A model generated the notes under the pieces. It saw only the letters and a program-made list of their open reading frames with translations. It had not been told where the DNA came from and made no database searches. 64,000 bases of DNA from Pseudorhodobacter ferrugineus DSM 5888 (GTDB lineage Bacteria > Pseudomonadota > Alphaproteobacteria > Rhodobacterales > Rhodobacteraceae): the NCBI RefSeq assembly GCF_000420745.1, contig NZ_ATVN01000006.1, forward strand, positions 1 through 64,000. Direction: 5' to 3'. Positions 37,485-42,472 of the stretch are shown here, piece after piece; position 1 is the first letter of the stretch; each line of letters opens with the position of its first letter. A program made the position numbers and the translations under genes.

Positions 37485-37555
37485 AAACTTTTGACAAACG
37501 GAAAATATGTGCCACCTTCACATTATCAGAAACCCATTTGAAAGGAGGTGGTCCA

Positions 37556-37612
37556 GTGTCGAGAGTGATGGTGGAGAAACGTGTCGGGACAATCAGCGGG
37601 GGTGTTTGCTAG
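37556..37612 (+). CDS. 18-codon micro-ORF with exceptional ribosome site
   Basis: GTG start, product MSRVMVEKRVGTISGGVC, stop TAG. The leader has AAAGGAGGTGGTCC (37541-37554), which pairs with the 16S rRNA 3' tail at 13 of 14 positions and has a seven-base spacing, far stronger than any other site in the window. Upstream is TTGACA (37491-37496), although the -10 is not clear. Downstream are two GC hairpins (around 37612-37622, and the GGCTGGACG region) and a perfect terminator at 37683. The unit is free-standing between yhhQ and the convergent nagA, so it is not an attenuator leader of a following gene. It may be a micropeptide gene, a dual-function small RNA, or a ribosome-sequestering RNA. 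I do not recognise the peptide. Confidence 0.5.
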   Translation: MSRVMVEKRVGTISGGVC

Positions 37613-37682
37613 GGGCAGCCCCCAGTAAAGCACACCTCTGGCTGGACGTGTCGTCCTAACTGGCCCGTCTCCTTAAAACTCG

Positions 37683-37716
37683 GAAAGGGTTGCCTTAACA
37701 GGCAACCCTTTCTCTA
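37683..37716 (+). terminator. Rho-independent terminator of the micro-ORF unit
   Basis: GAAAGGGTTGCCT-TAAC-AGGCAACCCTTTC (37683-37712): 13-bp perfect stem, four-base loop, followed by TCTATTTC. It closes the micro-ORF transcript and lies in front of the convergent nagA end. Confidence 0.85.
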
Positions 37717-37773
37717 TTTCGGGCACCGTTATTCTCCAAGTCGGGCACAATCAAACCTGCAGCAAGTGCCGCG

Positions 37774-38895
37774 CTACAGCGCCACCCCACCCCACCAGTT
37801 TTTTTCAACGCGCCAATCGGGAGCAAGATACACCATATCGGCGCGCCGCCCGACGGCCAGATGCCCCAAAGTATCGCCCATCCCGATCAACGCCGCAGGC
37901 GTAGATGTTACCATCGCCAGCGCTGCCTCAGGGTTTACCCCGATTTGTCCCACCAACACACCAAGCGCGCGGTCCAGCCGCAAATCGGCCCCTGCCAAAG
38001 TGCCATCATCCAGCGTCAACCGCCCGCCCTCGCGCCGAATACGACGCCCGCCCAAAACCATCTCGGTCAAATCGGTGCCAGCAAAAGCCATGCAATCCGA
38101 TATCAAAAACAAACCCTCGGGCCGTGCGGCAAGCGCAATCCGCAGCGCGGCGGGTGACACATGTATCCCATCTGCAATAATACCGGCGGGCAAGGTTGTG
38201 TCCAGCACCGCCCCCACCAACCCCATATTGCGCCCCGACATAGGTGCCATCGCATTGAAAAGATGTGTCGCACAGCCCGCACCCACAGCGATATAGGCCA
38301 TCGCCTCGTCATAGCTGCAGTCGCTATGCCCAAGGCTGACCAACACACCCGCCTGCACCAAGGCGCGCACTTGGTCCAAAGACGCCGAACATGGGGCCAG
38401 CGTTACCTTTAGTACCGGCAGCTTTTGCGCCGCATCCAACAATAAGGTCAAATCAGACGCAGACATCATTCGAATAAGGTCCGGATCATGGGCACCCTTG
38501 CGCCGCGGGTCCAAATGCGGGCCCTCCAGATGCAGCCCCAAAAAACCGGGCACACTAGCTTGCGCCGCCTCTATCGCGGCGTCAATCACCCGACGGGTCG
38601 CATCAGCAGTATCGGTAATCAATGTCGGCAACACGCCTGCACAGCCCATCAGAATATGCGTCGCACAAATTGCCGCAATCCGTCCGGCATCGGCGGTGCC
38701 GTCCAACATAATACCACCGCCGCCATTTACCTGCAAATCCACAAAGGCCGGCGCCAAAATACCACCCTGAAACATTGGGGCCGCCGCTCCAGCCGGCGCA
38801 ATGTTTGTGATTATACCACTCTCAACCATAACCGCCTGATTTGCCAGCAATCGCTTGCCATCAAAAACCTGCGCTCCTGAAAAAATTTGCGGCAT
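37774..38895 (-). CDS. nagA: N-acetylglucosamine-6-phosphate deacetylase
   Basis: 373 residues of the amidohydrolase superfamily. Metal and substrate motifs: FVDLQVNGGGG (about 51-61), LHLEGPHLDPRRKGAH (metal Glu), LGHSDCSYDEA and THLFNAMAPM (metal His residues), LISDCMAFAGT (catalytic Asp), then the beta-sandwich close GRRADMVYLAPD. It removes acetate from GlcNAc-6-P in amino-sugar recycling. No other nag gene is adjacent; the precursor carriers and NagB must be elsewhere. Confidence 0.92.
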   Translation of the reverse strand: MPQIFSGAQVFDGKRLLANQAVMVESGIITNIAPAGAAAPMFQGGILAPAFVDLQVNGGGGIMLDGTADAGRIAAICATHILMGCAGVLPTLITDTADATRRVIDAAIEAAQASVPGFLGLHLEGPHLDPRRKGAHDPDLIRMMSASDLTLLLDAAQKLPVLKVTLAPCSASLDQVRALVQAGVLVSLGHSDCSYDEAMAYIAVGAGCATHLFNAMAPMSGRNMGLVGAVLDTTLPAGIIADGIHVSPAALRIALAARPEGLFLISDCMAFAGTDLTEMVLGGRRIRREGGRLTLDDGTLAGADLRLDRALGVLVGQIGVNPEAALAMVTSTPAALIGMGDTLGHLAVGRRADMVYLAPDWRVEKNWWGGVAL

Positions 38896-39268
38896 TTACA
38901 CTCTCGGGTCCCGTTGGCTTGGCACAGCATAGCCATAACTGTCACATAGATGCACCAGTGTTTTTCTAAACTCAAAGCGCCGACACGGCCCGCTGTACGC
39001 TAAACGCTATATCTTCACCCAAAAATTAAGTCGGTTTGGCGCAATAGGCAGTCCTTTTCACCTTTAGATTGCACATTTCCTTAAAAAATCCCGCCTACGG
39101 CATATCCAATGCGAGCTACATTTATCGAAAGATAGCTATTTGTGTCTGAATGCGCGGAAACCCCCTAGAAATTGTGTCCGAAACTAGGTATTAAGGCATT
39201 AATGGGGCAAAAATGCTCAATAACAAAGCCGGGCTAAAACAATCCCGGAAATGAGGCGGAGTAGTATC
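38896..39268. other. AT-rich divergent spacer upstream of the adhesin gene
   Basis: 373 bp between divergent nagA and the adhesin gene, clearly AT-richer than the genes. No open frame of note. Symmetric sequences include ATTAA-GGCA-TTAAT (39190-39203) and a CCGGG...CCCGG pair near 39231-39247 in the likely 5' leader. This spacer probably carries the regulated promoter of the adhesin operon; I could not place -35/-10 boxes with confidence. The adhesin start has GGCGGAG about nine bases before it. Confidence 0.55.
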
Positions 39269-42200
39269 ATGGTTAGAGCGATTGATTTCGCTGTCCGCAC
39301 TTCTGCGGGCAATGTTGTACGCGGCGCGGTGTCTGGTGACGGCGGCAGCGAGTTTCTTCAGATTGGGTCCGGCGAATCCGTATCCCTTAATCTGCCTCAA
39401 TCCAGTGTAGTGGCCTATGAACGGCAGGGCACGGACCTTATCCTAAAACTATCAGACGACCGCAGCATTACCCTGAGCGGCTATTTTGAATCCGCTGCGG
39501 GCGAGGATAACAAGCTATACCTCAGCTCGAACGGCGAAGTGACAGAGGTCTTTTTGACCGATGGCGGCGATGGCGCGATGTATGCCAATTACGGCCCCGT
39601 TGATACATGGAACAAATATTCAAACGTCGATGACCTTCGTTTTACCGATGACGGCACCTTGCTAGCGGCCGAAGGTTACGCAGATGACGAAGTGGGCATG
39701 GGCATGTTCGCGCCTGCGCTGTTGGGCTTGGGCGGCGGCGGTCTTGGTACGGCTGCAGCAATTGCCGGCGGCGCGGCTGTCATTGGCGGCGGTATTGGTG
39801 GCGGCGGCGGTGGTGGTGGTGGCAGCCGCACCCCCCCAGCCGTGGACAACGCGCTTGACAGCAAAGATATTAGCACCAACACCCCCGACAAGGCCGTGAC
39901 CGTAACAGGCACGGGCGAACCGGGTGAAAAGGTCGAAGTCAAAGTCGGCGACAAAACCCAAACCACGACCATCAAAGACGATGGCACATGGGAAACCAAG
40001 TTCGAAGGCGGCAACTTCCCCGGCGACGGCAAGTTTGAAGCCGAGGTGAATGTCACAGACAAAGACGGCAAAACTGAAACCTTGGACGGTCCAGAATTTG
40101 TTATCGACCTGACCCCGCCAGTCGTAACGGCGACCGAAGGCACCGTGGCCGCAGGCGATATTGAAAACCTTGCAGAATACGCCGACGGCGTGACCATCAA
40201 AGGCGAAGGCGAATCCGGCGCGACCGTTTCGGTTGTGGTCAACGGTCATACCCAAAGCACCACCATCAGGGATGGCAAATGGGAAGTCACCTTTACCCAG
40301 TCGCAAATTCCTGCGGGCGACAACACCTTCCCCGCCATCATCACCGCAACTGACCCGATGGGCAACAAAACCGTTATCACAGAGTCCATTCGGGTTGATA
40401 CCATTCCCCACCCGCTATCGTTCAACACGACCGCAGGCGACGACACGATCAACTTGGTTGAATCGGGCGGCCAAGTTGTCGTGACCGGCTCCTCTACCGC
40501 AGGTGCAATGGTCAGCGTGACCATGGGCGGCACCCTGAAAGAAGTGAAAACCGGCACCGATGGCAAATGGGAAGTTAGATATGACGCTGGCACCTTTACC
40601 GCCGATGGCACCAACGTAACCCTGACCGCAAGAACGGTTGATGCTGCGGGCAACCCCAGCGAGACCACACAAACGCTCAAGATCGACACCTCGACCAATG
40701 TCAGCTTTGACACGACACCAAAACTGGCCGGCGATGGCATTATCAACGGCGACGAGGCCAAATCCGACGTCTTGATCACCGGCAAATCCGAAGCTGGCAC
40801 CAAATCAGTGTCAGTAACATGGAACAACACCACAGTACCGGCCGAAGTGTCTGCCAACGGCGACTGGACCGTGAAATTCCCCAGCGCGTCTATCCCCGCA
40901 TCTGGTACCTCTACCGCGATCGTCAACTCGGTTGATGCCTATGGCAACGCGGGCCGAAACGAACGCACCATCACGGTTGACCGCGAAACCACCGTTTCCA
41001 TCGACGCCAATCAGGCCGGTGGTGACAACATCATCATGAGCACGGAAGCCAACGCGGGCGTTACCATTACCGGCCGTGCCGAAGCAGGGGCCAAGGTTGA
41101 AGTCAGCTTTCAGGGCAAACCGGCTCACACGGTTTATGCCAATGATGCAGGCGTATGGTCGAGCAAGTTCGAAAGCAGCGAAATCACCCGCGGCACCTTT
41201 ACAAACGGCCCGAACACTCAGGTCAGCGTAAAATCCACGGATCTCGCGGGCAACACCGACACCAAGACCCACACCATCGCCATCGACACCGAAGTCACCA
41301 ACTTTGACCTGACCGAGATGTCCACCGGCGATGATGGCGTCCTGAACAACATCGAGGCCCGCAGCGGACTGACCGTCAGCGGCACCGTCGAGGTCGGTGC
41401 GCAGTCGGTTATGGTCACCTTTGGCACCTTTGGCACCTATCCCGCCACAGTCAACCCCACTGCCGGAACTTGGAGGGTGACAATCCCCGCAGGTGTCATT
41501 CCAGCAGGCGAAACCACTGTCGAACTGACTGCGGTTGCCAAAGACAAACTTGGCAACATATCGCCTCCGCATACCGAAAACGTCGAAATCGACCGTATCG
41601 TCACGCCCTTTACACGGGGTGGCAGCGGCTTGATCGGTGGCGATGGCACCCTGAACGCGGTCGAAGTTGCAAGCGGCCTTGACCTTGCCGGAACGGGTGA
41701 ACCCAAGTCCACGATGGTCGTAAGGTTGCCAAGCGGCGCCTTCCAAGAGGTGCATATCGACGACAGCGGCACATGGAGCGTCCGCTTTGAGGCAAATCAA
41801 CTGCCACGCGGCAATAACGTCAGTATGAGAATCACCTTTGAGGCGACGGACAAGGCCGGCAACTTCACCAGCTTCGACGAAACCGTAAAGATTGATACGG
41901 TTGCCCCAGACGCGCCCGAAGTCACCGACATCCTGAAATCCACCTCGGGCGCCAAAGGCCTCAGCGGTGTGTTCCTCGATGAAACGATTGACACCAACTT
42001 CTCGTTCCACCGTGTCGGCGCAAATGGCAGCGATACACCTTTGAATCTGAAAACAGGGTCGCTCGGGTCCGATTTCGCTCGGTTTGACAACGCAACGGTG
42101 CCAGAAGGCGACTATCTGGTCATCAATCACCATGATGCGGCGGGCAACGACTCGGCAACCTTGCTGGTCACCAATAACACGGGTTCCATTTCGGTTGATC

Positions 42201-42472
42201 TGAACAATGCAGCGTTCAAGAACTTCGACTTCACGTCGCTGGATCTGACTCTTGCCCCAACCAACATGACCATCAGCGCAGAAAAGCTAATTGCCATGAC
42301 GGGTCCGGACAACACACTGATGGTCAAGGGCGGGGCAGACGATCAGATCACCCTGCAAGGCGGCAGTCTGGCAGCAGATCAAGGGTCGTCCCCAAGTGGA
42401 TATCTCCTCTACCATCTGGGCGACAATGCCGCCTCGATCTATCTGGACGACGACATCAAACCAAACTTCTAA
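39269..42472 (+). CDS. BapA/LapA-like Ig-repeat adhesin, type I secreted
   Basis: 1067 residues. The N-terminus (about 1-95) is a BapA-prefix-like segment (SSVVAYERQGTDLILKLSDDRSITLSGYF). A Gly/Ala stretch (about 150-187) follows, which in related adhesins precedes the repeats and may serve retention. Seven bacterial Ig-like modules of 90-100 residues (about 190-890) end in D/N-x-x-GN...xxIDT-type signatures; the modules are diverged. The C-terminus (about 890-1067) lacks GGxGxDxxx RTX nonapeptides, so the type I signal would be unconventional. Gene order with a TolC-type protein, ABC exporter and HlyD adaptor right behind makes export by this system very likely. No LapG or LapD homologue is within the window. 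Confidence 0.85.
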   Translation: MVRAIDFAVRTSAGNVVRGAVSGDGGSEFLQIGSGESVSLNLPQSSVVAYERQGTDLILKLSDDRSITLSGYFESAAGEDNKLYLSSNGEVTEVFLTDGGDGAMYANYGPVDTWNKYSNVDDLRFTDDGTLLAAEGYADDEVGMGMFAPALLGLGGGGLGTAAAIAGGAAVIGGGIGGGGGGGGGSRTPPAVDNALDSKDISTNTPDKAVTVTGTGEPGEKVEVKVGDKTQTTTIKDDGTWETKFEGGNFPGDGKFEAEVNVTDKDGKTETLDGPEFVIDLTPPVVTATEGTVAAGDIENLAEYADGVTIKGEGESGATVSVVVNGHTQSTTIRDGKWEVTFTQSQIPAGDNTFPAIITATDPMGNKTVITESIRVDTIPHPLSFNTTAGDDTINLVESGGQVVVTGSSTAGAMVSVTMGGTLKEVKTGTDGKWEVRYDAGTFTADGTNVTLTARTVDAAGNPSETTQTLKIDTSTNVSFDTTPKLAGDGIINGDEAKSDVLITGKSEAGTKSVSVTWNNTTVPAEVSANGDWTVKFPSASIPASGTSTAIVNSVDAYGNAGRNERTITVDRETTVSIDANQAGGDNIIMSTEANAGVTITGRAEAGAKVEVSFQGKPAHTVYANDAGVWSSKFESSEITRGTFTNGPNTQVSVKSTDLAGNTDTKTHTIAIDTEVTNFDLTEMSTGDDGVLNNIEARSGLTVSGTVEVGAQSVMVTFGTFGTYPATVNPTAGTWRVTIPAGVIPAGETTVELTAVAKDKLGNISPPHTENVEIDRIVTPFTRGGSGLIGGDGTLNAVEVASGLDLAGTGEPKSTMVVRLPSGAFQEVHIDDSGTWSVRFEANQLPRGNNVSMRITFEATDKAGNFTSFDETVKIDTVAPDAPEVTDILKSTSGAKGLSGVFLDETIDTNFSFHRVGANGSDTPLNLKTGSLGSDFARFDNATVPEGDYLVINHHDAAGNDSATLLVTNNTGSISVDLNNAAFKNFDFTSLDLTLAPTNMTISAEKLIAMTGPDNTLMVKGGADDQITLQGGSLAADQGSSPSGYLLYHLGDNAASIYLDDDIKPNF

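Follow-up and report, generated by a model that had tools for sequence, protein, structure and literature searches.

Organization of the locus

The window, which is the whole 64-kb stretch of DNA that was analysed, carries on its plus strand a very small gene-like unit. It lies behind yhhQ, which encodes a queuosine precursor transporter (NCBIfam TIGR00697), and in front of nagA (37774-38895), which is on the minus strand and convergent to the unit. A TTGACA box at 37491-37496, recognized in the sequence and by its match to relatives, is presumed to be the -35 box of the unit's own promoter, and the -10 region would be ACCTTC at 37514-37519, as judged from the 17-nt spacer. The transcript would then start about 8-14 nt before the Shine-Dalgarno (SD) block GAAAGGAGGTGGTCCAG at 37540-37556. 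The block contains the leader AAAGGAGGTGGTCC (37541-37554), which is followed by GTG, the start of a frame of 18 codons (VSRVMVEKRVGTISGGVC, GTG...TAG, 37556-37612). The frame is recognized from the sequence, from its length in relatives and from a stop-codon constraint. It is closed by TGC TAG at 37612, and the peptide ends in GGVC, exactly as an earlier note on this DNA had described.

Minimum free energy folding of this single sequence predicts one hairpin that contains the last codons and the stop (37595-37643) and a small one at 37644-37656. The former is absent from the RNAalifold consensus computed on A1. These hairpins are followed at 37659-37674 by ACTGGCCCGTCTCCTT, a look-alike of the 16S rRNA tail, which the fold, RNAalifold and duplex energies point to as the partner of the SD block in cis (the cis anti-SD). 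The unit ends at 37682-37713 with a terminator-like hairpin, whose tail is mixed but includes T; this hairpin is seen in the sequence, in the fold and in two-sided changes in relatives. The two additional hairpins that the earlier note had described are predicted here as well, but its "perfect" 13-bp terminator consists of 12 Watson-Crick pairs and one G-U pair. A simple terminator scan of this stretch of the window did not list the 37682-37713 hairpin, a sigma-70 consensus scan of the stretch found no promoter, and there is no 6S match at the locus.

Elsewhere in the window, the serC leader (RF00517, 54164-54215, minus strand, 68.4 bits) is the only Rfam match at the gathering level. The plus strand at 39251-42472 encodes a 1073-aa Ig-repeat protein with Ca2+-stabilised adhesin repeats, which also has a BapA-prefix-like match just around the cut-offs.

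The claim that the unit stands alone is borne out by the convergent orientation of nagA and by the -35 box, since at least 86 of 109 relatives have their best TTGACA match (5 or 6 of 6) between -46 and -51 relative to the block. In 101 of 110 relatives a same-strand yhhQ match does end 57-390 nt (median 72) ahead of the unit, so that the unit might be taken for merely the 3' UTR of yhhQ. The fixed distance of the -35 box from the block makes this extremely unlikely, as does the finding that outside the family the upstream neighbors are other genes, often on the opposite strand (the ORFs being guessed). The locus is most likely an independent small RNA gene with an inferred length of about 180-190 nt.

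Starting from the -35 box (37491-37515), several relatives read TTGACAAACACAAAATCTGTGTCA or something near it by eye. The TGACA...TGTCA inverted repeat that can be seen by eye in this type of stretch could be an operator.

Complementarity to the 16S rRNA tail

A search of the organism's own contigs gave no 16S gene, and the tail was therefore taken from relatives. Of 61 family genomes, the four that contain the search pattern show a 16S gene ending in CGGCTGGATCACCTCCTTTCTAAGGA, at five places in all. The leader AAAGGAGGTGGTCC is identical to the antisense of this tail at 13 of 14 positions, and the one deviating base, a G in place of A, can form a G-U wobble with the U of the rRNA. With the flanking G's included, the SD block can form 17 consecutive pairs, one of them G-U, with the whole 16S 3' tail. 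The energy of this duplex is -32.2 kcal/mol. Of 45 gene-like ORFs in the window, none has an SD stronger than -18.6 kcal/mol, even with the most favorable start allowed. The near-complete anti-16S Shine-Dalgarno sequence that had been noticed earlier is thus present, and its extent suggests that the RNA could bind the 30S subunit through the 16S 3' tail.

The exact 14-nt sequence AAAGGAGGTGRTCC occurs once in the 3.43-Mb assembly, with three further sites that have one mismatch. This single copy, together with the class-restricted distribution described below, rules out a chance occurrence of the block.

Conservation in Rhodobacteraceae

A DNA search of 61 genomes detected the unit in 27, all among the 37 family members (the own genome included), and in none of the 24 genomes from outside the family. 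Of 248 family genomes, each representing one genus, 228 contain a match at E <= 0.01 to a covariance model of the unit that was built from 46 units, and 20 gave no match; 207 of the 248 are matched at E <= 1e-10, as counted from the table, and some of the weaker matches may be stray terminators. The unit, for which the earlier note had proposed a search of this kind, is thus conserved in the family.

The 110 loci that were examined represent the better-scoring part of the match list (all E <= 5e-34), and one of them lacks its 5' end. Comparison of 109 blocks, of which one with a 1-base deletion was set aside, shows that positions 4-11 and 17 are invariant in 108 relatives; positions 18-19 were fixed by the filter. 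Position 12 is A in 65, G in 40 and C in 3 of the 108. As this variation is mostly between A and G, the pairing with the rRNA is mostly kept.

Relation to CC2171 and wider distribution

Judged by sequence, the window unit is distantly related to the Rfam sRNA CC2171 (RF01867) and forms the Rhodobacteraceae branch of an alphaproteobacterial group that includes CC2171. The earlier statement that no described equivalent is known is wrong because of this relationship. The RF01867 model matches the window with 26.2 bits and an E-value of 5.6e-4, below its gathering cut-off of 75 bits, in an alignment that spans model positions 1-159 with the middle unaligned. The two RNAs share 20 of 21 positions of the 5' block GAAAGGAGGUGAUCCAGUGUC (21 nt) and the terminal hairpin, are similar in length and occur in Alphaproteobacteria. 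They differ in that the stem CAUUGUC:GACAAUG, which closes CC2171 before its terminator, is absent from the window sequence, where instead the SD is predicted to pair with the cis anti-SD.

CC2171, a Caulobacter sRNA, is said to have been first reported by Landt et al. in 2008. In the accessible parts of the open literature no function of CC2171/RF01867 was found. A Mesorhizobium member of RF01867 appears in the sRNA table of PMC5596092, a source that describes the detection of 19 annotated sRNAs by sequencing. This table entry and the Rfam name as a Caulobacter sRNA indirectly suggest that the group is expressed.

The RF01867 model scores above its cut-off in 7 of 190 class genomes and matches 45 of the 190 at E <= 0.01, a few of these matches being due only to the end hairpin. 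A pattern search found the block together with the start codon at no fewer than 120 places in a collection of species genomes and in 37 of 289 class genomes. The pattern AAAGGAGGTGATCCNRTGTC is present in 42 of 299 phylum genomes, that is, in 42 of 86 inside the class and 0 of 213 outside it (classes counted from the list); the reversed pattern has no match in the 299.

In total, 174 units were sorted by their peptides into groups A-E, which are rough peptide patterns and not taxonomy (at least one family member, L028, was placed in E). Group A is mostly Rhodobacteraceae with VSRVILERGVGTVRG-like peptides; group B has VSHC... peptides and includes units above the CC2171 cut-off; group C has MSS... 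peptides; group D is Bradyrhizobium-like, with peptides ending in RCHLAGIAR; group E holds the remaining units. At the position of the closing stem of CC2171, a covarying stem is found in group B and none in group A. No neighbor gene common to the units outside group A was seen by eye, and many of the next genes point toward the unit, the ORFs in both cases being guessed from composition.

Several single cases were noted in this survey. The block was found in a MAG labelled Gemmatimonadota (L053), with a weak start-proximal stem (-5.2), which could be due to chance, transfer or mislabelling. One genome (G381) has two differing copies of the unit with different peptides, L329 and L330, of which L329 ends at a contig edge. 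In L088 (Azospirillum sp. B21), L122 and L137 the block is followed by a longer frame that begins with MSHGA.PV...LFGLA.LL and whose product, judged by eye, looks secreted.

The short frame and its peptide

All 109 frames of relatives start with GTG, and 103 of the 109 are 18 codons long. Codon 19 is TAA in 24, TAG in 34 and TGA in 45 of them, TGG in none and another codon in six (Fisher p 9e-12, relatedness ignored). Such an avoidance of TGG is hard to explain otherwise, and the short frame therefore looks translated. By this comparative stop-codon constraint, the unit has the translated short frame that is expected of a dual-function sRNA.

The peptide itself behaves differently. In the 63 distinct frames of the first set, pN/pS is 0.83 in frame versus 0.82 and 0.84 in the two shifted frames, and for codons 7-18 it is 0.84 versus 0.84 and 0.74, so that no selection at the level of amino acids is seen in this comparison of three frames. 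The contrast between codon 19 and pN/pS indicates that a translated frame of fixed length is kept with no sign of selection on the peptide as such, and the peptide as the product of the unit was rejected on the lack of a signal in pN/pS.

The earlier note had proposed a micropeptide among other possibilities. Translation, which this proposal needs, is backed by the constraint at codon 19, but a role of the peptide is weakened by the equal pN/pS values and by the fact that peptides of different lineages look unrelated by eye while the SD block is common to them. A plain micropeptide gene, in which the very strong SD would serve an abundant short functional peptide, is thus distinctly unlikely, even though start, frame and stop are strictly kept and Ser2 and Glu7 occur in 63 of 63 distinct frames, Ser2 being encoded by all four TCN codons (some of these frames come from units that were found with a pattern fixing TGTC). 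Rare codons (AGA, ATA, AGG) are frequent in the family consensus, which would also speak against such a gene, yet base composition explains them. The codon score of the consensus is 0.309 versus a median of 0.719 in gene windows, and that of the window ORF is 0.488, with a lower median of 0.383 for its shuffled nucleotides. Rare codons as a stalling device were rejected because the shuffled nucleotides score even lower than the window ORF.

RNA structure

The RNA 37535-37718 folds at -78.4 kcal/mol, better than 200 of 200 shuffles (z -4.0). In the predicted fold, 37542-37551 pairs with 37665-37674 and 37553-37557 with 37659-37663, so that the SD is not free, and the anti-SD stretch 37659-37674 that occupies it resembles the 16S tail itself. 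The duplex between the SD block and the cis anti-SD has an energy of -21.9 kcal/mol. The RNAalifold consensus of A1 contains the SD:anti-SD helix, backed by one-sided changes only because the SD is invariant, and the terminator stem, backed by many two-sided changes.

The mean pairing probability of the SD is 0.94 in group A versus 0.65 with shuffled downstream sequence, and 0.89 versus 0.74 in group D. It shows no excess over the shuffles in groups B (0.59 versus 0.72) and C (0.65 versus 0.68) and no clear excess in group E (0.72 versus 0.70). Sequestration of the SD as a universal rule was rejected, since groups B and C do not exceed the shuffled controls. The downstream SD-complementary stretch has a mean z of -1.59 in group A, -1.33 in B, -1.26 in C, -1.69 in D and -1.11 in E (163 units), which suggests a modest signal for mimicry of the tail in cis.

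In many units outside group A, codons 2-6 form base pairs with the nucleotides directly ahead of the terminator. The sequences of this start-proximal stem vary between lineages and the pairing is kept: over 152 units the duplex is at -9.36 versus -6.43 +/- 0.23 with permuted 3' segments, and 0 of 300 permutations are as good. Within the groups, as good a duplex is reached by 0 of 300 permutations in B, 0 of 300 in C, 3 of 300 in D and 20 of 300 in E; the stem is unsupported in group A (-8.02 versus -8.13, 210 of 300 as good). The shuffles, as well as the Fisher test, take related sequences as independent, and many of the units had been found with patterns that contain the block or with the model. 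The predicted structures may be read as variations of a common theme, in which the 16S-complementary 5' end is opposed by a fold that covers or adjoins the start site.

The anti-SD segment could also act on other RNAs. It contains nearly invariant columns in the alignment and is paired to the unit's own SD in the fold, as would be expected of a trans-acting antisense RNA. The anti-SD CCGTCTCC of such an RNA would be exposed once a ribosome sits on the RNA's own SD, and would then block SDs in further mRNAs. Across groups B to D, however, the best cis partner of the SD is found mostly inside the frame and differs in sequence. There is therefore no common seed, and such an antisense function is very unlikely.

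Neighborhood of arfB

According to the earlier note, there is no downstream gene to attenuate. This holds for the window, where nagA is convergent and the regulated gene that should follow an attenuator directly on the same strand is missing, but not for the relatives: in 88 of 110 family loci an arfB match follows downstream on the same strand. The median distance from the end of the model is 40 nt, often it is 24-25 nt, and the identity of arfB was confirmed by NCBIfam for two copies, one from L021 and one from the organism's own genome. In that genome, arfB is located elsewhere (G000:C4:77746), without a unit in front of it.

These findings bring up the possibility that the unit is an orphaned transcription-attenuation leader of arfB. 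Translation of the frame would then set read-through, coupling rescue capacity to the state of the ribosomes; the terminator is just upstream of arfB in most Rhodobacteraceae, and the lineage of the window would have lost its arfB neighbor. The frequent gap of 24-25 nt leaves little room for a separate promoter, and the yhhQ match upstream in 101 of 110 loci is also consistent with such a leader. The reading is nevertheless rather unlikely, because the unit is retained without an arfB match in 22 of 110 loci (21 of these with at least 700 nt of downstream sequence examined), because in a stricter test the arfB motif turned up within 500 nt of just 31 of the 69 first-set units in group A, and because no strong antiterminator is seen by eye. 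Terminators of the linked (87) and unlinked (22) loci are alike, with 3.55 and 3.59 T in 8 in the T-tract (p 0.74) and no difference in the G-C pairs of the stem (p 0.15), so that the idea of weaker terminators before arfB was rejected. Outside group A the motif is found in the available flanks of only three of 105 units: one is L028, the family member misgrouped by its peptide, and the other two have the motif on the opposite strand. Attenuation of arfB as a general function was rejected outside Rhodobacteraceae and retained as a rival reading within them. The unit would rather be a stand-alone RNA which in one family sits, and perhaps acts, before the ribosome-rescue gene arfB.

Two group C units, L068 (from a Hyphomonadaceae MAG) and L125, have the arfB motif upstream on the other strand, at distances of 238 and 1093 nt, respectively.

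A model for the function of the unit

The reading preferred here, with a probability of about 0.45, is that of a 30S-binding small mRNA/sRNA which would toggle between a closed and a ribosome-bound form. The process can be described in four steps. 1) The 5' end would pair with the entire single-stranded 16S 3' tail, the complementarity being seen in the sequence, and should therefore be a better trap for free 30S subunits than an ordinary mRNA is. 2) The 18-codon frame is, by comparison of relatives, maintained and probably read, and the act of translation would matter, no selection on the peptide being detected. 3) When no 30S subunit is bound, the SD would fold onto the 16S-tail look-alike just before the terminator, a pairing that appears to be conserved, and a bound or translating ribosome would open this fold; in other lineages the role of the switch may fall to the stem that codons 2-6 form with the nucleotides preceding the terminator. 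4) The two forms might differ in their output, which could be the holding or sparing of 30S subunits, the stability of the RNA or the freed anti-SD segment. Where arfB is directly behind the terminator, it may read the state of the RNA. The fourth step is the weakest.

Several observations weigh against a ribosome-responsive RNA. The extreme SD might merely drive high expression. The SD:anti-SD helix is backed from one side only, sequestration of the SD is not general across the groups, the start-proximal stem is unsupported in group A and weakly supported in group E, and the cis-mimic signal is modest (mean z from -1.1 to -1.7). For codons 7-18, pN/pS is 0.74 in one shifted frame, below the 0.84 of the true frame.

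A somewhat improbable variant is an RNA dedicated to the 30S subunit, which would serve as a decoy or cap along the whole 16S tail, would compete with its own built-in copy of the tail, and would store, sense or protect idle 30S subunits. A protective role is plausible, since 16S rRNA in vitro was better protected against RNase R when an oligonucleotide complementary to its 3' end was added (PMC10901742). The earlier idea that such an RNA may sense or drain ribosomes would fit the findings.

The observation of the mini-gene in the earlier note is confirmed as real and beyond chance, and its interpretation is partly supported. The cis anti-SD, the -35 box, the link to arfB in relatives and the Rfam relative had been missed.

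Comparison with known systems

6S RNA mimics a template and thereby holds RNA polymerase. The window RNA would follow the same principle, imitating a template and thereby keeping hold of a core machine, but that machine would be the 30S subunit. Alphaproteobacteria also have anti-SD sRNAs, among them the 'cuckoo' RNAs. The anti-SD sRNA BbsR14 likewise carries an anti-SD-like stretch, but, as described in PMC7717549, its motif is in two stem-loops, whereas the window RNA has one stretch, predicted to pair with its own SD. The extended SD sites of Staphylococcus aureus have in common with the unit a long start-proximal SD-aSD pairing and short leader frames; extended pairing is described as characteristic of that organism (PMC13009471), however, while the assembly of the window has one exact 14-nt site, on a stand-alone RNA. 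Dual-function or attenuator-derived small RNAs such as rnTrpL/peTrpL are also short RNAs with a short translated frame, but rnTrpL is described as leaderless and as the tryptophan attenuator (PMC10117765), whereas the window unit has a maximal SD and its frame contains no run of codons of one amino acid. Two earlier-predicted ncRNAs are reported to be translated (PMC4117421). Several Rhodobacterales motifs are listed in PMC8632094, the main text of which does not contain the words arfB or release factor.

Biological implications

The mini-gene stands alone in the window, yet it has relatives, and these raise its interest. The same 16S-complementary block heads differing mini-frames in many Alphaproteobacteria, the frame being kept and the peptide apparently not, and the 16S-tail look-alike in cis or a start-proximal stem may oppose the binding of the ribosome. 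An Rfam name for which no function was found thereby becomes a testable group. If the decoy reading is true, the RNA would be a ribosomal counterpart of 6S RNA, and the conserved arfB neighbor in Rhodobacteraceae would link it to ribosome rescue. If the RNA binds 30S subunits in cells, it would represent a ribosome-directed regulatory RNA of Rhodobacteraceae, rhizobia, relatives of Caulobacter and others.
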